DNA of 64,000 bases from Saprospira grandis str. Lewin (GTDB taxonomy: Bacteria > Bacteroidota > Bacteroidia > Chitinophagales > Saprospiraceae). The stretch spans positions 372,001 through 436,000 of the forward strand of contig NC_016940.1 in assembly GCF_000250635.1 (NCBI RefSeq), given 5' to 3'. Position 1 is the first letter of the stretch. Each line of letters begins with the position of its first letter. The notes beneath the pieces were generated by a model. That model did not search any database and was not told the origin of the DNA. It worked only from the letters and a program-made list of their open reading frames with translations. Made by a program: the position numbers and the translations under genes. Below, one piece after another: positions 13,396 through 63,733 of the stretch.

Positions 13396-13505
13396 AAAAT
13401 GAGTTCAACAACTTGGCCTCAAGATAAAGATTTATAGAAAAAGGGCCCATTAAAAAATGGCTTAAGCGGCGGCCAGCTCTATTTTGTTCCTGTTCTTTTT
13501 TGGGC
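13396..13505. repeat. 110-bp direct repeat, right copy
   Basis: The original copy: its last 44 bp encode the C-terminus (N-K-I-E-L-A-A-A and stop) of the small HTH gene, and the rest is its 3' flank. The partner copy at 11032-11141 carries the same sequence detached from any full gene. Confidence 0.9.
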
Positions 13506-13923
13506 TTGGGTATAAGGCGGCCAAGCCTGCCAAGTAAATTTTATAATACAAGCTAATAAAGCGGTTGAGATAAGTTAGGGGCGAAGCGATAGCTGCTAAA
13601 TAATTTACTTTTTTGGACTGCGCTGTTTTTTTCTGGTCCTTTTGCGGCAAGTTGTTTTGGCTTTGGCCTTTTAGTAAGCCCAAGCTAATCAATTGCTCAT
13701 AAATGAGGTTTAATTCTGAAACTTCTTCCAAAATGGCTGTGGGTTGGCCCAAAGCCTTAAAAATGAGGAGGAATTCTGCAAAGAGAAATTTTCTGCGGCC
13801 AATAAAATGGTCCAAACCCGCAGCACGCAAACGTTTGCGTAAAGTAGGATAAGAAATGCCGTAAAAAGCTTTGAGCATTTTTTTACTCAATTTATAGTCT
13901 TGCATTTTTTGATCGAGCTGCAT
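13462..13923 (-). CDS. Small HTH-like protein at the edge of the defence cassette
   Basis: A 153-aa basic protein of unknown family. Residues about 15-37 (K-M-L-K-A-F-Y-G-I-S-Y-P-T-L-R-K-R-L) look like a helix-turn-helix. Residues 40-85 are helical, and a second hydrophobic stretch (about 110-137) could pack in a core or against the membrane. Its composition and GGCC content resemble the core genes, unlike the ATPase and TOPRIM genes downstream. Its 3' end is duplicated at 11032-11141, so it appears to be the resident gene beside which the PARIS-like cassette was placed. A regulator of the downstream genes is possible but unproven. Confidence 0.65.
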   Translation of the reverse strand: MQLDQKMQDYKLSKKMLKAFYGISYPTLRKRLRAAGLDHFIGRRKFLFAEFLLIFKALGQPTAILEEVSELNLIYEQLISLGLLKGQSQNNLPQKDQKKTAQSKKVNYLAAIASPLTYLNRFISLYYKIYLAGLAALYPSPKKNRNKIELAAA

Positions 13924-55872: not shown

Positions 55873-56109
55873 AGAGGTTTTATTCTGTTAAAAATTTATT
55901 AAGACAAAATTAAATATAGCGGCTTTAATTGAGAAAATAAAATAGTTTGTAACTAATAGCCGTAGGAAATTCTATAGTACGGTATTTTTGATCCTCTATA
56001 TTTTGGAAACATTATATTTTTGGCCAAGGTGCGCCTACCCCAATGCTTAAACAGAAAGTCCCTTAGTTTAAGGTGGAGGTTCTTCAGGGAGGGGAGCTAG
56101 CTCCCCTCC

Positions 56110-56871
56110 CTAGAGAAGATGCTGAAGAAAAATATCTTGAGGAGTTTTATATCCTAAAGAACTATGAAGCCTGTGATTGTTATAATAATTAAAATACTCT
56201 TTAAGTCCTTTGTGTAAATCTAAACCATTTTCATAAGCTCTCAAATAAATATGCTCATATTTTACGGACCACCATAATCTTTCTACAAACACATTATCTA
56301 AGGCGCGGCCTTTTCCATCCATGCTGATCTTAATTCCTCTGTTGAGCAACTCAGACGTAAATTCTAGAGAAGTAAATTGGGCTCCTTGATCAGAATTAAA
56401 TATTTCTGGCTGCCCCCATTTCCAAGCTTCGTCCAGAGCCTCTAGACAAAATCGCTTATCCATGCTGTTCGAAATCCGCCAGCTCAAAACATATCGACTA
56501 TACCAATCCATGACAACGGTTAAGTACATAAAACCCGCTTGCATAGGAATATAAGTAATGTCAGTTGCCCAAACTTCATTTGAACGGCTCACTTTTAGGC
56601 CTCGAAGTAAATAAGGGTATTTCTTATGGCTTTTAGCTGATAATGAGGTGTTTGGCTTAGGTAAAACAGATCGAATATTCATCTTTTTCATCAAGCGAGC
56701 AACTCGTTTTTTGTTACAAGTCAAGCCTGAGGCCCTTAAATACTCGGTCATCCTAGGGTAGCCCCATTCTGGATGTGACAGATGAAACTCGTCAATTTTA
56801 CGCATCAGCTTTAAGTTTTCTGCACTTTCGCCCACAGCTTGATAGTAGTATTTTGATCGGGAAACCGACAT
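56110..56871 (-). CDS. IS3-family transposase OrfB
   Basis: A 253-aa integrase-core (rve) transposase. The DDE residues are seen in V-W-A-T-D-I-T-Y, F-N-S-D-Q-G-A-Q-F and V-F-V-E-R-L-W-W-S-V-K. The N-terminal HTH_21-like part (H-P-E-W-G-Y-P-R-M) is present. The same frame is open further upstream to about 56964 and overlaps orfA, so the functional product is probably an OrfAB fusion made by -1 frameshifting on the A9 run at 56954-56962. Confidence 0.93.
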   Translation of the reverse strand: MSVSRSKYYYQAVGESAENLKLMRKIDEFHLSHPEWGYPRMTEYLRASGLTCNKKRVARLMKKMNIRSVLPKPNTSLSAKSHKKYPYLLRGLKVSRSNEVWATDITYIPMQAGFMYLTVVMDWYSRYVLSWRISNSMDKRFCLEALDEAWKWGQPEIFNSDQGAQFTSLEFTSELLNRGIKISMDGKGRALDNVFVERLWWSVKYEHIYLRAYENGLDLHKGLKEYFNYYNNHRLHSSLGYKTPQDIFLQHLL

Positions 56872-56938
56872 TAACTCACATTGCCGAGCTATGCTAAGTC
56901 CTTCTAATACTGCTATTTGGCTCAGTCTTAAAGCTTCA

Positions 56939-57226
56939 TCACATTCCTCTATATTTTTTTTTAAGCCAGTCTAGCTCAAACTGCAACTTGCCTATTTGCT
57001 CATATAAACGGGCTTCTTTTTCTTCATCAGCATCCACTTTGGGCCCTCGCTTTTTTTCATAAAGCAAAAAACTATTGGCCAAAAGTTCTTTCTTCCAGGC
57101 CGATATTTGATTTGCATGTAGCTCATATTTTGTCGCTAATTCTGCCAAGGTCAATTGCTCTTTTAGCGCTTCTAAGGCTACTTTTGCCTTAAATTTAGAA
57201 CTGAAATTACGGCGCTTCTTTCTCAT
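56939..57226 (-). CDS. IS3-family transposase OrfA
   Basis: A 95-aa HTH protein (N-F-S-S-K-F-K-A-K-V-A-L-E-A-L; T-K-Y-E-L-H-A-N-Q-I-S-A-W-K-K-E-L) with a C-terminal leucine-zipper-like helix. It ends shortly after an A9 run that is the likely slippage site joining it to OrfB. It binds the element ends. Confidence 0.92.
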   Translation of the reverse strand: MRKKRRNFSSKFKAKVALEALKEQLTLAELATKYELHANQISAWKKELLANSFLLYEKKRGPKVDADEEKEARLYEQIGKLQFELDWLKKKYRGM

Positions 57227-57348
57227 CTCTTTTGTAATTTAGTGCTTCATTATACGACTTTTTTTCTTGCGTTTTTCCACCTTAAACTACTGTCCTAATT
57301 TTGGGGGTAAGGGCAAGGCATAAAAGAAAAAGTGTATTTGGGACATAA

Positions 57349-57541: not shown

Positions 57542-58867
57542 TTATGAAACAATGTTAATAATTGCATCACTAATGTTTTTCAAATCTCTTTTAAGTGCTC
57601 CAACTGTAGCATAATTATTCTTATATCCACAGTGGTTAATATCATTTCGCTTACCTGCTCCTGTCATTTTTTTATAATTAGACGTTAGGTGAAACCTATT
57701 TGGAGCAATAGTTCCTTCCATTCTTCTAGCGATTTCTTTGACCTCATCTTCTGATAAGTTGCTATTTCTCCTAGAAGATCTGAGCTGAAGGCGATTTGCA
57801 CTAATTTTATTTAAAACTCCGTTTGCAATTTCTCTATAGTCTTCTCTATTGATATAGCGAGTACCTTCTGTCTCCTCGATTAACCAGCTAATTGTTGTTT
57901 CTAATAGAAACGTATAACCTTGTTGCACCATATTATGCTCGATACACCATTCTACAGCATGAAAACCTTTTAGAGTTGTTGAGTTGCCCAGTGTACTTAA
58001 TTTATCATCAATTTTCTTTAAGATAGGGCGAAGTTGGTGACTAATCTGCTCATCTCCATCCAAGTTATTGATATCATTCTTGATTCTGTCAATATCAACT
58101 TCTTGAGTTAGTTGATGTCCACGACAGTTTAATATAGCGTCTGCAACTTTTTGTACATCACTAGCTAATTTGGGATTTTCTTTTTTAATCAGATTGGCCA
58201 ATTCATCGGGGTAAGAGGCCTTAGTGAACATTTCTACGGCGTCGGTCCATTGTCCTAATTCAATGATGTTATTTAGCACTTGAATAGGGGTTATACTTTT
58301 CCCTCTTCCTGCCTCAAAATTACCATAGAAAAGTCCTTTAGGGATACAATCCTTAACGGAGGCGAGGTAGTTAATGAGACTTAATGCCAACATGGGTAAA
58401 AAGCGATAGCCATTAGTGACATCCATATAGAGTTCTGAGTTTGAATCTACTTTTTCTTCTATCGCTTTGAATATTTCCCACATTTCAGATTCAGTAAAGC
58501 CATCAGGAATAGTTACGGCCTCAAAGTGACCTATTTTACCTTCTTCCTTTAGAAGTGCAAGAGTTTCACCAATTCCCCCCTCTTCATTTTCAGAAGCATA
58601 AATATTCTGCGTTAAATCATCATAATTTATTTTTGCAACACGTTTATCAAAGCAATGAGTCTTGGCCATTTCTGTTGTAAAAAAGTAAATTTCATCTATC
58701 TCAGGGTCCCAGTTCTTCAATATATTTAGCTCAAGAATTGCTCTTGACGCATAGTGGCTAGACTGTTTTTCAGCGCCATATACAGCTGTATTTTCAAATT
58801 GATAAGTTACTTTTCGGTATGCAGAATACCCCAAAAACGAGATAAAAACCTTTTTCTTCTGATTCAT
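57542..58867 (-). CDS. CARF-HEPN protein, TM1812/Csx family (first paralogue)
   Basis: A 441-aa CRISPR ancillary protein. The N-terminal CARF-like domain (residues about 1-190) starts K-K-V-F-I-S-F-L-G and carries L-Y-M-D-V-T-N-G-Y-R, the family form of the D-x-T-H-G-x-R motif seen in Csx1/TM1812 proteins (TIGR02221). The C-terminal helical domain ends with R407-N-D-I-N-H412, an R-x4-H HEPN ribonuclease motif. Proteins of this kind are switched on by cyclic oligoadenylate made by Cas10 and degrade RNA. It is the last gene of the operon, 3 bp after the HTH gene. AT-rich and poor in GGCC. Confidence 0.85.
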   Translation of the reverse strand: MNQKKKVFISFLGYSAYRKVTYQFENTAVYGAEKQSSHYASRAILELNILKNWDPEIDEIYFFTTEMAKTHCFDKRVAKINYDDLTQNIYASENEEGGIGETLALLKEEGKIGHFEAVTIPDGFTESEMWEIFKAIEEKVDSNSELYMDVTNGYRFLPMLALSLINYLASVKDCIPKGLFYGNFEAGRGKSITPIQVLNNIIELGQWTDAVEMFTKASYPDELANLIKKENPKLASDVQKVADAILNCRGHQLTQEVDIDRIKNDINNLDGDEQISHQLRPILKKIDDKLSTLGNSTTLKGFHAVEWCIEHNMVQQGYTFLLETTISWLIEETEGTRYINREDYREIANGVLNKISANRLQLRSSRRNSNLSEDEVKEIARRMEGTIAPNRFHLTSNYKKMTGAGKRNDINHCGYKNNYATVGALKRDLKNISDAIINIVS

Positions 58868-58870
58868 TGA

Positions 58871-59389
58871 TTAAAGTTGGTCCAAGGCGGCTTGCAGTAG
58901 GGGTTTGATGGTCTCCCAATCCTCATTTTTCAGCTTATCGAAGCGATGGCGCAGGCTAGCATAATGGCTAGCGAGCAGAATCGTGGGGCGAATAAAGGGG
59001 AGTTGGAGGATAGCCGCTAGGGCATCGCCGTCTTGTTTATGAATAATTTTTTTGAGTTCTTTTTTGATGAATTTCCGATGGTTGAGCAGTTGTTCGGCCT
59101 GTAATAGGGCCAGGGTGTTATGCTTATCGGAGTTCATAAAATCGTTGAGGGTATGGGCGGGAATCCCCTCAAACTGGCTACGATTGATAAAGCTGAGGGC
59201 CAAAAAATGGCGACAATTTTTGAGCTGGCTTTTAGAGGCAACGGTTCGGGGCTGGTAGTTGGGGTCGGCATATCGCTCGGGGATCCCTTGGCGGTGTTTC
59301 CATACCCGAATCGTTGTCTCTTTAAGGCCAAACTTCTTTTGTAGCTTTCTGGCTAGCTCTTCGTTGTAGCTGATGTATTTCTTCGCCAT
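58871..59389 (-). CDS. HTH-like protein between the two CARF genes
   Basis: A 172-aa protein of no family I recognise. Residues about 8-35 (E-E-L-A-R-K-L-Q-K-K-F-G-L-K-E-T-T-I-R-V-W-K-H-R) look like a helix-turn-helix. The rest is helical and basic in the middle (K-F-I-K-K-E-L-K-K-I-I-H-K). It lies within the CRISPR-associated operon, 3 bp before one CARF-HEPN gene and 53 bp after the other, yet its higher GC and GGCC content resemble core genes. It could be a regulator of the ancillary nucleases or an inserted resident gene. No known Cas protein matches it by eye. Confidence 0.7.
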   Translation of the reverse strand: MAKKYISYNEELARKLQKKFGLKETTIRVWKHRQGIPERYADPNYQPRTVASKSQLKNCRHFLALSFINRSQFEGIPAHTLNDFMNSDKHNTLALLQAEQLLNHRKFIKKELKKIIHKQDGDALAAILQLPFIRPTILLASHYASLRHRFDKLKNEDWETIKPLLQAALDQL

Positions 59390-59442
59390 AGTGGTATTTT
59401 TATGTGTTTCAATACTTGTATGGTTGAAGATAGGGAAATTAT

Positions 59443-60666
59443 TTACTTTAAAATAATTGCCTTATATCTATTTATCCGGCTTTCTAAATCTCGAATATCG
59501 GCAGTAAATGAATTCCGGCCACCAATAGAAGCATGGGCAATATCTTTACGGACATTGTTGATGGTCTTAAATAATTGATTTCGATTAAACTCTCTATGCC
59601 CATAAGCTTGATTTTTTGCATCTCTCCGACTATTTTCTGATGCAATATCCTCAACCTCATTTTGCTCACAAATATATGTAACAGCGGCCTCTACAAGAAG
59701 AATATAAGCTTGAGCATAAAAGTCTTTTTGGGCATACCATTCCGCCATTAAAATCTGAAATGCAGATTCCTGACTTCCTGATTTAGTTATAATGTCATTA
59801 AACTCTTTAAATGTCTGAGGCAAAATTAAGCGTGCTTGAGTAGAAAGGTCATTCATTTCTTTTTGAACCCGTCCTAAAAGTCCCTTAATTTGTGTAACAC
59901 TAGATAATCGTATTGCTTGTGTCAATTCTCGAATCTTTAGGGCAAGAACCTGCTGATTATCTTTTTCTAATAAATCTGCGATCAATTGACCATTGCCATG
60001 ATTCTTAAAATTATATGCCGCTTTTGACCACTCTAACATATTATCAACTGATCCCAAATCGATGATAGGTGCATGTTTTAAAGAACGAGCACTTTCAAGC
60101 ATCCCATAAAACATACCTTTAATTTTCAAATTCTTTGTTGAAACTTCTCTCAGGTAGCTCAGAATAGTGGTTATAAAAACAGCACTTGATCTAAACCCAT
60201 GCGTAATATCTAAATAGAGCTCGTCTCCATCTTGCAAAGTGCCATCAACACCTTTAATAATAATATCTAAATTTTGCTTCATTTGAACCTCGTTATATCC
60301 CCAATAAATAGGAATTACTTTTGAGCCTACACCTAATGCCTTCTCTAAGTCTGCAAATACTTGTTGCGGTTCAGAATCAAAATCAGCTTTTTCTGAAATC
60401 TCTAAATATTTCTCATCAATTTTTTCCTCATAACAATCTGACTCTTTTGCATAATGCGTATACAAGGCATCCCACATTGAGCCCATCGTCCCAATAATAA
60501 TCTTAGTATCAATAGCAAAGTGCTTTGATAGGGGAGAAGATACAAACTCTTCTCCTTCATAAGATTTTTCATCAATCTTATATGTTGCCTTAAGATAAGC
60601 TCTATTTAGAGCATCTCTATCTAAAATTCCCTTTCCCAAAAAAGAAATCAACACCTTACGTCCCAT
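59443..60666 (-). CDS. CARF-HEPN protein, TM1812/Csx family (second paralogue)
   Basis: A 407-aa protein with the same plan as the 57542-58867 product but only distant identity. The N-terminus is R-K-V-L-I-S-F-L-G, the CARF motif is L-Y-L-D-I-T-H-G-F-R, a helical linker follows, and the C-terminal HEPN motif is R373-K-D-I-A-H378. A predicted cyclic-oligoadenylate-activated RNase of a type III CRISPR system. It is preceded by a hairpin terminator and the RAMP gene. Two such paralogues in one operon suggest different ligands, different RNA targets, or a heterodimer. Confidence 0.85.
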   Translation of the reverse strand: MGRKVLISFLGKGILDRDALNRAYLKATYKIDEKSYEGEEFVSSPLSKHFAIDTKIIIGTMGSMWDALYTHYAKESDCYEEKIDEKYLEISEKADFDSEPQQVFADLEKALGVGSKVIPIYWGYNEVQMKQNLDIIIKGVDGTLQDGDELYLDITHGFRSSAVFITTILSYLREVSTKNLKIKGMFYGMLESARSLKHAPIIDLGSVDNMLEWSKAAYNFKNHGNGQLIADLLEKDNQQVLALKIRELTQAIRLSSVTQIKGLLGRVQKEMNDLSTQARLILPQTFKEFNDIITKSGSQESAFQILMAEWYAQKDFYAQAYILLVEAAVTYICEQNEVEDIASENSRRDAKNQAYGHREFNRNQLFKTINNVRKDIAHASIGGRNSFTADIRDLESRINRYKAIILK

Positions 60667-60691
60667 ATCTCCAAGTTTTTAAGTAAAAAAT

Positions 60692-60723
60692 AAAGGCCAA
60701 GGCAGTTATAGTCCTTGGCCTTT
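60692..60723 (-). terminator. Hairpin between RAMP and CARF genes
   Basis: Stem AAAGGCCAAGG / CCTTGGCCTTT with a 10-nt loop, and T-rich sequence on both sides. On the - strand it follows the RAMP gene stop by 10 bp. It may attenuate transcription into the CARF genes. Confidence 0.75.
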
Positions 60724-60732
60724 TTTGTTGGT

Positions 60733-63243
60733 TTATGATTTTACAATTACCTCATACCATTCCTTAGCTTTAGCTTCATCCTTAAAGCACTTTTTCAAGA
60801 ATTTAAAGAATTCTGTGTGCTCCATTTTCTTCTTCTTACTAGGAATCCAAGTTGCCTGTGTACGTTTGTTTTCCTTTAGCACTAACTGAAAGCTGTCTTT
60901 AAACAACTGCATGAATTTTTCCTCTTCCGCTTCTGGAATAGGATCGTAGTCTAAGTAACTAAGTGTCGCGCTGAAAAGCCCCTTTACCTGAGGGTTTGGG
61001 AATGGGTAAGAGCGTTTATTCTTTGCTATTTCATCATCTAGCTCCTTTTTCTTTTTTTCTCTTTCCGCCGCATCGTCTTTACGCTTCTGCTCCCTTTCCT
61101 CTTCTGCTTTTGCTCGCCGTTCTTCTTCCTTGCGCCGCTCTTCCGCTAACCTTTCAATTTGCTTTCGCCGCTCTTCCGCTTTAGGTTTCTCTTTTTTCAA
61201 CCCTTTTTTCACAGCCTCTGCTTTTGTCTTTAGCACTAAAGCCTTTTTTATAAGTTCTATTCTAGCATTCCCCCTTGTAATTGGAGTTAAGGCTTGCCCC
61301 CCATTTGTCTCGGTTTTATCTGGTGACACAGCTCCTAATTTCGTATAGCGAACGAGGGCTTCTTTCATTGTCCCTTTCTTTTTATTTTCATTTTTTGCAC
61401 TTCTAAAATCCTTAAGTTTCATATACTTAGGATTAAAGTCATACAGTTGTTTTTGTACCGTAGTCATGGCTAATAACTCTTTTAAGGGATCACTATTCAA
61501 CCATCTTTTTTCAAACCCCTCATCACTGAAAAATTGTTGCATCAAGAACTCAAATTGCCCCATATAAGCTGCAACCTTTCTATTTTCAATTTCTTCTGTT
61601 TTTAGATGTAGCTTTACTTTCCCAAAGCCTAGAGGCTTTCCCATACCTAAATTGTGAAAACAGCTATCCGTTCCATGCATCGTAATTGCACTAATCAAAG
61701 CCCCTAACTCCTCTGGAAGCAAATTGTGATAATGCACTTTAAACTTTGCAGTTAAGTCCTCTTTTAATGGCTTAAAATGACTTAGTATTTTTCTATTTAT
61801 ACCATTTGTTGAAGGAAGTTTTTCATAACTAAAATTTTGATGTATAGGATATCGCTTCCGACCTGCTAGGTTTACTCTTTTGGGATCATCCATATATGTT
61901 TTATAAGGCTGTCTGTAAGGAACTTTCGTTTCACCCCCCTGATCAATATAGCTAGGATAATAAGAAGCCTTAGGGCTACTCAAAACAGCTGATACTGTCT
62001 CTCCTTCAAGGTCATCATCATCTTTCTTAATAAAATTAGCATGCGAAAACTGAACCCGTCCCTTAAGCATGAGCAAGCTATTCTTTTGGTCTCCCTCATC
62101 AACATTACCAAAAATACATTGACTTAAATCAAGCTCATTTAATCTTTGATCCTTAAAATAGTCTCCAATCCGATGCTTAAAAGGCAGCTTATATAAATAG
62201 GAATAACCTAAGCTCTTAATTTTCCCCTTTTCTTCAATGAAGAAAACAGGAACTTCTTTGCCAGCCTCTAAGCGTTTCTTCCAATATTTCCAATCATGAG
62301 ATTGTTGATATTCATCAAAATCAAAATAAGCAAACTTAAAATCAGCAATTACTTCCTCTGGAACCACAAACTGCTCCCCCCCTATATCAGGAAAGATAAA
62401 CTCAAATACTTTTCCTGAGGATTTCCCTCCCTTGGGCTCTTTCCTTTTAGATGGCTGACCTGTAAAAACAACCTTTCCTTTTTGCCTAGTTTCTGTTTCA
62501 GACAGCGTACAAACTTTCCGCCCTCTATCATCTTTTGTTCTCGCTATAAAAACATCTTTTAGTCCTATTTTAGGATATAACTCATATTTATGCTTTGCTG
62601 ACTTTAAATAATCATCTTGCTCGTTATACTTATTGTATTCCGAAGATACTTGCCCATCAGTAGTTTTTTCATACTTTAAAGAAACTTTACCTTGAAAATA
62701 ATCGGACATTTTTAAACCAAAAGAATCATCTAATTCCTTATGAGAAATTCTTTTGGGCTCTCCACAACTTTCTATAATATATTTATCTCCCTCCTTCTTC
62801 ATCCAACCACATTGCTGATACTTCATTTTCTTCATATAGAAGTTGTCATGAGAACTCAAATCACGGGCAGCATAACGATGGTCGTTATAAAAATTCATCT
62901 TACTAAAAGACAATACTTCCAAGACAGAACGCAACATTCCCTTTAAAGAAGTAGCTGGAATAAAATACTGCTTATCCCCATTCGCATCATAATAGTGAGA
63001 AAAAGCCAACGGCCCACCTTCGCTACTTATTAGCTCTTTGCCCTTAGAGTCGTAGATAGCCTTATCCTTTCCCAAAACTCCATTCGCAATAAAAATAGGA
63101 CTATGTGTCTTTAGCTCTACCTCTAAGGTTCCCGAAAGGCCATCTTTAAATGGCTGGTCATGTGAAACCAATGGTCCCCAAGCAGGGTAAAACACTTTCT
63201 TCTCTAAAGGCACAAAATTGTACGGCGCTTTAATTATACTCAT
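60733..63243 (-). CDS. Large RAMP protein, TIGR03986-type CRISPR-associated
   Basis: An 836-aa protein. I take ATG 63243 (MSIIKAPYNFVPLEKKVFYP) as the start, since it is 1 bp from the upstream stop; the longer frame overlaps that gene. The N-terminus, the block F-I-P-A-T-S-L-K-G-M-L-R-S-V-L-E and the glycine-rich loop G-M-G-K-P-L-G-F-G-K-V-K-L are RAMP hallmarks, matching the TIGR03986 family found with type III systems. After residue about 660 comes a highly charged coiled coil of some 80 residues (Glu/Arg/Lys) and a small C-terminal domain. It probably binds crRNA or target RNA in an effector complex. No catalytic motif is evident. Confidence 0.85.
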   Translation of the reverse strand: MSIIKAPYNFVPLEKKVFYPAWGPLVSHDQPFKDGLSGTLEVELKTHSPIFIANGVLGKDKAIYDSKGKELISSEGGPLAFSHYYDANGDKQYFIPATSLKGMLRSVLEVLSFSKMNFYNDHRYAARDLSSHDNFYMKKMKYQQCGWMKKEGDKYIIESCGEPKRISHKELDDSFGLKMSDYFQGKVSLKYEKTTDGQVSSEYNKYNEQDDYLKSAKHKYELYPKIGLKDVFIARTKDDRGRKVCTLSETETRQKGKVVFTGQPSKRKEPKGGKSSGKVFEFIFPDIGGEQFVVPEEVIADFKFAYFDFDEYQQSHDWKYWKKRLEAGKEVPVFFIEEKGKIKSLGYSYLYKLPFKHRIGDYFKDQRLNELDLSQCIFGNVDEGDQKNSLLMLKGRVQFSHANFIKKDDDDLEGETVSAVLSSPKASYYPSYIDQGGETKVPYRQPYKTYMDDPKRVNLAGRKRYPIHQNFSYEKLPSTNGINRKILSHFKPLKEDLTAKFKVHYHNLLPEELGALISAITMHGTDSCFHNLGMGKPLGFGKVKLHLKTEEIENRKVAAYMGQFEFLMQQFFSDEGFEKRWLNSDPLKELLAMTTVQKQLYDFNPKYMKLKDFRSAKNENKKKGTMKEALVRYTKLGAVSPDKTETNGGQALTPITRGNARIELIKKALVLKTKAEAVKKGLKKEKPKAEERRKQIERLAEERRKEEERRAKAEEEREQKRKDDAAEREKKKKELDDEIAKNKRSYPFPNPQVKGLFSATLSYLDYDPIPEAEEEKFMQLFKDSFQLVLKENKRTQATWIPSKKKKMEHTEFFKFLKKCFKDEAKAKEWYEVIVKS

Positions 63244-63244
63244 C

Positions 63245-63733
63245 TTATTGTTCGTTTTTTGGGTTTTTAAATCCAGCAAAAGCCCAGCCCATTGGCTCAA
63301 AGGCTGCTGCCTTAAATTCATTATTTCCAGCCTCTACTAATGCCCAGATTTCCTTAAACAAAATTATTTGCTCCTTATTTTTGGCCATCCGCAGCTCATG
63401 ATCTATACATTTAAAAGCCTCGTTTCCTTCTACCTCCGCCAAATTCACACAGTAAATCTTTAACTCTTTACCTAGCTGCCGAATGTGCAGACTTTCCTTG
63501 CTTGCAAGATCTACAAAGGCCGCTTCTACAATAAAGCCATCATTGTCAGCTTTCAAGGCCTTTTTTAAGGCCTCAATATCCAAGGCTGATTTTTTATTGC
63601 TATTCTTTAGTCCATCCGAATACAGCTCTGGCCGCTCTGCTGATTTCCGCCAAATGTAGCCTTCATAGGTCCCCGCTTTGATTTCCTCAAGCGCTATTTC
63701 CCGCTTTTTATATTTCTGTTCTGCTATTTTCAT
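63245..63733 (-). CDS. Small type III CRISPR-associated protein (TIGR04423-like)
   Basis: A 162-aa protein whose N-terminus contains Y-E-G-Y-I-W-R-K-S-A-E-R-P-E-L, which resembles the short family TIGR04423 reported with Bacteroidetes type III loci (from memory). The middle is Lys/Glu-rich, and the C-terminal part (F-E-P-M-G-W-A-F-A-G-F) is compact. Its stop is 1 bp from the RAMP start, so they are translationally linked. It is the most upstream gene of the operon visible here. A structured repeat unit follows on its 5' side, and core effector genes, if any, lie beyond it. Confidence 0.7.
   Translation of the reverse strand: MKIAEQKYKKREIALEEIKAGTYEGYIWRKSAERPELYSDGLKNSNKKSALDIEALKKALKADNDGFIVEAAFVDLASKESLHIRQLGKELKIYCVNLAEVEGNEAFKCIDHELRMAKNKEQIILFKEIWALVEAGNNEFKAAAFEPMGWAFAGFKNPKNEQ

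Follow-up and report, generated by a model that had tools for sequence, protein, structure and literature searches.

A constant HTH gene associated with type III CRISPR effector loci in Saprospira and related genera

To our knowledge, little is known about how cells are protected from their own type III effectors, or about the control of CARF sensors that a cell has newly acquired. HTH proteins of the Csa3 type are encoded in CRISPR loci and are tied to cyclic oligoadenylate signalling in passages of two papers (PMC8844856, PMC8699464), and WYL-domain regulators are associated with CRISPR loci in passages of two others (PMC4012209, PMC11229360), the latter a survey that sets regulators aside for later study. 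Here, we describe a gene for a small HTH protein in a stretch of 64,000 nucleotides of Saprospira grandis str. Lewin (NC_016940.1, positions 372,001 to 436,000), referred to as the window. Its likeness to Csa3, which combines CARF with a winged HTH, is that of an HTH protein encoded in a CRISPR locus. In Csa3 the CARF domain is fused to the HTH, whereas the window protein is free of CARF and the CARF proteins are the products of separate, adjoining genes. A WYL domain was not matched in Pfam and NCBIfam scans of nine family members at E 0.1. As judged from sequence, the family differs from these compared CRISPR HTH regulators, Csa3 with its CARF domain and the WYL type, in having neither domain. 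We found no description of it in the open PMC literature, including passages of PMC12669027, PMC11229360 and PMC12409355.

The HTH gene and its type III-D neighbourhood

The HTH gene (58871..59389, minus strand, ATG start, 172 residues in the list of open reading frames) lies, as the preliminary description had it, between two CARF-HEPN genes: csx1-A (59443..60666, minus strand), the stop codon of which is 53 bp from the start of the HTH gene, and csx1-B (57542..58867, minus strand, 441 residues), the ATG of which follows the HTH stop codon after 3 bp. Both neighbours are matched by the Csx1/Csm6 model PDLC01032 (E 3.5e-89 and 8.1e-74) and both carry R-x4-H, so that each combines CARF with a HEPN domain holding R-x4-6-H, the features by which Csx1 was defined. 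Next to them are a type III-D Cas7 fusion (60733..63321, minus strand; TIGR03986, 297.6 bits against a cut-off of 161.35) and a csx19/cas11-like gene (63245..63733, minus strand; TIGR04423, E 1.5e-76). The module runs on past the end of the window with three more open reading frames and cas10 (G000:C1:439930-441705, G000 being the genome of the window), in which the Cas10 model matches at C1:440452-441126 (E 3.5e-11). With Cas10, the Cas7 fusion and Csx19 all present, the module adjoining the HTH gene is a type III-D CRISPR module.

The base composition of the HTH gene (GC 0.482, GC3 0.578, GGCC 7.7/kb) is like that of the core genome, and the contrast with its neighbours that had been pointed out before is borne out: csx1-B has GC 0.357, GC3 0.294 and GGCC 3.0/kb, and csx1-A 0.347, 0.26 and 1.6/kb, whereas two core genes past the module have GC 0.452 and 0.496 with GC3 0.513 and 0.584, and GGCC averages 8.3/kb over the window. 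The open reading frame is not a product of chance, because it has orthologues in three more Saprospira genomes, a dN/dS (given below) to match and distant homologues that score above all shuffled sequences. On the far side of csx1-B, at 56022-57321, an insertion of about 1.3 kb carries two open reading frames that by eye are transposase-like; it is found 3' of csx1-B in G000 and is absent there in G001, a genome of the same genus.

The preliminary description had also suggested a comparison with the protein encoded at 13462-13923, and kinship with that protein was not borne out (BLASTP E 0.78, hhalign P 0.13). The latter has a paralogue of 65% identity (L077 1089-1547, at about 197 kb of G000:C1), likewise unrelated to the HTH protein, which ends a second type III module with csm2- to csm5-like open reading frames (by eye), a cas10 found by model and an adjoining AAA-like ATPase. 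The 13462-13923 family is a candidate for a second, unrelated defence-linked HTH family.

A constant gene amid changing modules and sensors

The HTH gene is present in four of the six Saprospira genomes searched. Intact copies are those of G000, G241 (same species, 99%) and G001 (same genus, 99%), the copy of G002 (same genus) is frameshifted, and no orthologue was found in the drafts G003 (63% complete) and G004 (90% complete). The gene is the centre of a constant block of 616 bp (58830..59445, minus strand) that extends from the csx1-A stop codon to codon 13 of csx1-B, with an identity over 615 columns of 97.4% between G000 and G001 and 95.0% between G000 and G002, and with divergent sequence on both flanks. 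An alignment of the four Saprospira genomes that carry the gene showed that the 53 bp on its 5' side (59390..59442, minus strand), a candidate promoter/operator, is near-constant although the preceding gene differs. In the same four genomes, the start of csx1-B always lies 3 bp past the end of the HTH gene, and the first 38 bases of csx1-B are constant. Another conserved stretch, of 102 bp with 95% identity between G000 and G001 (60635-60736), runs from the last part of the Cas7 fusion across the gap into the first csx1-A codons, with divergent sequence beyond it.

The surroundings of the block are far less stable. At the slot flanked by the same core genes, G000 and G002 share one III-D module (six proteins at 78-90% identity), and G001 and G241 have other III-D modules, which are 24-49% identical to the first and 49-80% to each other. 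A csx1-A gene is found only in G000 and G001, where the two proteins share 23% identity, and at this place G241 and G002 have none. Within csx1-B, the CARF region of G000 and G001 has 15-45% identity per 20-residue step over residues 21-140, and the HEPN region has 85-100% from residue 201, a near identity that does not extend to G241. In G002, a transposase-like open reading frame (by eye) interrupts csx1-B, and this is the genome in which the HTH gene is frameshifted (G002:C1:412754-413557). Thus, the HTH gene keeps its place while the modules and the CARF sensors around it differ. These differences presumably arose by recombinational exchange. The modules of G001 and G241 additionally contain an ATPase-like open reading frame of 780 aa and an HNH-like one of 250 aa, both recognised by eye (G001:C2:3457878-3460971 and G241:C1:426490-429586). 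A similar pair lies behind a III-A-like module in G512, a genome of another genus (L081 7718-9835), and by eye all three pairs are Septu-like.

The dN/dS of the HTH gene is 0.020 for G000/G001 and 0.071 for G001/G241; for the remaining pair of the three intact copies it is 0.275, a value that rests on four changes. Its dS of 0.127 (G000/G001) and 0.106 (G001/G241) falls within the range of core genes (0.088-0.207), which points to a core-like descent. For G000/G241, the dS of 0.018 is below the 0.088-0.104 of three core genes, and between G000 and G002 the block is 95.0% identical against 81-88% for the flanking core stretches; on account of these two observations, some recombination is possible. 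A spread of the gene between strains later than that of the core was considered, since at fourfold sites only 1 of 65 differs between G000 and G001 in the HTH gene against 8-16% in core genes, but we set this aside because the full dS of the same pair is in the core range.

With GC, GC3 and dS all core-like, and with a constant block between divergent modules, the gene might be read as a resident core gene of Saprospira that has nothing to do with CRISPR and is a mere homologous anchor for recombining CRISPR modules. The gene is frameshifted in the single genome whose csx1-B is interrupted, which speaks against such an anchor, as do the neighbourhoods of its distant homologues described in the next section, and we consider it very unlikely.

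Homologues and their surroundings in other genera

Homologues were sought in overlapping draws of genomes (60 relatives, 398 of the family, 396 of the order, 395 of the phylum, 20 of the family of G512 and 315 of the class). The gene is rare, being found at the limits used in 8 of 398, 8 of 396, 5 of 395, 3 of 20 and 3 of 315 genomes, counts that include weak matches and come from overlapping draws. Convincing homologues outside Saprospira come from five more genera (G349, G512 with two tandem copies, G448, G436 and G272), all of the same order in sets that reached up to the phylum; their scores to the window protein (Z 7.7-16.8) each exceed all of 500 shuffles. A scan of genome contigs matched Saprospira grandis DSM 2844 and one MAG, and a plasmid search gave no relative. 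Six of the single-sequence genome matches at E 0.004-0.09 were examined: four are MerR/CarH-type proteins in Saprospira genomes, and at the other two there is no small HTH gene at the match site. The family alignments A1-A4 were made without the weak single-sequence matches, the weak profile matches (E 0.001-0.01) and the frameshifted G002 copy.

Three of the five genera have their homologue in a type III/CARF neighbourhood. In G349, a III-D locus holds Cas10d, Cas7-type open reading frames (by eye), Csx19, a membrane protein with weak similarity to Mem_03, Cas6, the HTH homologue and a CRISPR array, so that the homologue is placed between cas6 and the array; the array, on its 3' side, has about 30 repeats and is followed by RT-, Cas1- and Cas2-like open reading frames (by eye). 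The Csx1/Csm6 model PDLC01032 had no match in the G349 genome. In G512, the order is HTH, HTH, a gap of 343 bp, PD-DExK, Csx1, PD-DExK and Csx20, with cas10 on a separate contig from the HTH pair. In G448, the homologue lies in the neighbourhood of a III-A operon, where the order is Cas10, Csm2, Csm3, Csm4, Csm5, a CARF-HEPN protein, a terminator-like hairpin, HTH, Csx20 and Cas6. According to passages of PMC12409355, Csx20 degrades cA4. In three genera the HTH gene is about 1 kb or less from a CARF effector, and in two it shares a cluster with csx20; we saw no operator-like repeat common to the genera.

The homologues of the other two genera are placed elsewhere: that of G436 is solitary, 20 kb inspected by eye having shown no CRISPR gene, and that of G272 is in a prophage among phage-like genes (terminase- and portal-like, by eye). 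Both genomes carry cas10 at another site, and so did all four genomes tested, a count with no base rate to compare it with. Counting Saprospira, four of six genera have the gene in a type III/CARF neighbourhood. Finding the gene again at type III/CARF loci outside Saprospira is what we asked of a type III accessory gene, and the rough binomial probability of this by chance, for three of five genera, is about 2e-5 if such DNA makes up 1.2% of a genome and 1e-3 at 5%, both fractions being assumed. The preliminary description had raised the possibility that the pairing recurs in other genomes. The gene is present in four Saprospira genomes, and in these three further genera it has a type III/CARF neighbourhood. 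Neither of the outcomes that were to refute the idea is seen, since the family is neither confined to one strain nor mostly placed away from CRISPR loci, G272 and G436 being the exceptions. The distant homologues of G349, G512 and G448 in such neighbourhoods argue against a CRISPR-unrelated anchor in Saprospira.

The prophage copy of G272 and the solitary copy of G436 would suit a different origin, that of a general phage-type HTH repressor of mobile elements and defence islands, captured several times at the edges of CRISPR loci and with no dedicated CRISPR role. The helical matches to Aca2 and AcrIIA15 given below would fit such a repressor, and so would the N-terminal heads, which are alike in all member pairs (Z at least 5.8). 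Profiles also match the two proteins past the head (residues 3-163 in G272, 6-139 in G436), one of which has a pI of 6.5. Conversely, the C-terminal bodies are closer among the CRISPR-linked members (Z 3.4-9.3, with the tandem G512 pair at 24-25 set aside) than between these and the other two (Z -1.3 to 4.3), although the two ranges overlap and the split was drawn after the neighbourhoods had been seen. Moreover, 50,697 phage records gave no match to the G512 copy as query and no relative was confirmed in the viral contigs of IMG/VR. We regard a captured repressor of this kind as unlikely.

Predicted structure and proposed role of the HTH protein

AlphaFold2 was run on an alignment of nine rows. 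The model (pLDDT 89.5, pTM 0.71) is mainly helical, with a strand at residues 5-7, helices at 10-20 and 24-33, a strand at 35-37, helices at 53-63 and 78-86, a long helix at 95-118 and a helical region at 121-171. Residues 10-33 are predicted to form an N-terminal HTH from the first two helices, and a model of the head alone gave the same elements (pLDDT 81.1). The window protein is basic, with a pI of 9.9 (at least 9.3 in eight of nine members), so that the HTH N-terminus and basic helical body proposed at the outset agree with the model. A regulator or nucleic-acid-binding accessory, as then suggested, would fit both the model and the charge.

No library family matched the HTH protein at its cut-off (PADLOC, Pfam and NCBIfam among those scanned); in the PADLOC scan one of nine members matched any family, a homing endonuclease, and the window protein matched none. 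Matches below the cut-off to eukaryotic and herpesvirus families in Pfam, and PDB profile matches to maspin (E 0.0013 at best), were taken as chance. The carph-isopro domain (NF046037) matches weakly in the HTH region of the window protein (18 bits, below the cut-off of 38) and below its cut-off in seven of nine members, with a best E of 0.00025.

Foldseek against the PDB gave no match at E <0.001 for the full or the head-alone model, and the latter gave no useful fold match. A second look with residues 49-172 gave, among its weak matches, the HTH autoregulators Aca2 (residues 49-170, Z 4.0) and AcrIIA15 (N-terminal domain, residues 54-111, 57 residues, rmsd 2.4, Z 4.0). Aca2 and AcrIIA15 belong to anti-CRISPR operons. 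Common helical arrangements often reach a Z of about 4. Unrelated helical proteins score as high or higher, with three matches above these two that are not HTH proteins, and the likeness is too weak for a claim of kinship.

In MerR proteins, an HTH and a wing are followed by helices 3-4 and a dimerisation helix. The secondary structure of the model, with a strand, HTH, wing-like loop, two helices and a long helix, is compatible with that order, and a weak collinear similarity to MerR/CarH runs over residues 14-72 (pairwise E 2e-5; hhalign P 0.003, probability 10%). The HTH protein differs in having no Pfam MerR match and no ligand domain that we could see. A MerR-like kinship is a lead. An internal repeat of residues 51-112 and 113-172 (hhalign P 3e-4, probability 41%) is unproven, and it conflicts with the MerR reading of the middle of the protein.

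The high pI, the 3-bp spacing to csx1-B with its constant translation start and the copy of G349 between cas6 and the array would also be consistent with an accessory that binds RNA (for example in csx1 mRNA translation, at the crRNA or at the array leader) and is not a transcription regulator. Since the best matches of the head, all of them weak, are to HTH types (carph-isopro, CarA, MerR-like), we consider such an accessory quite improbable.

The association of the HTH family with type III CRISPR is well supported, and its function we infer. On balance, we favour a DNA-binding regulator that is linked to type III CRISPR and acts on the cyclic-nucleotide effector arm. What counts against it is that no library family and no significant PDB match was found, that no operator-like repeat is common to the genera, that the G512 pair is 343 bp from its effector cluster, that the G349 copy adjoins cas6 and the array, and that two homologues have no CRISPR neighbour. 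As such a regulator, the protein would bind DNA through its N-terminal HTH, probably dimerised via the long helix at residues 95-118, at a target site within the conserved 53 bp on the 5' side of its own gene. It would thereby set the expression, by repression or by activation, of csx1-B, the co-directional and toxic CARF-HEPN effector; in other genera it may set that of a nearby CARF effector, the Csx20 ring nuclease or Cas6. Effector modules and CARF sensors would be swapped around a fixed HTH gene, which would bring new sensors under resident expression control. More tentatively, and with somewhat less confidence than we place in a regulator as such, we suggest that a constant expression cassette is formed by a dedicated regulator without a sensor, the promoter of its gene and the translation start of csx1-B, and that CARF sensors and III-D modules are swapped into this cassette between strains.

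Because its gene is found next to type III systems in further bacteria of the order too, the HTH protein is probably a previously unnamed part of the type III immune response, and most likely a switch. A conserved HTH protein that has no sensor of its own, amid changing sensors and modules, would offer a testable handle on the control of type III effectors.
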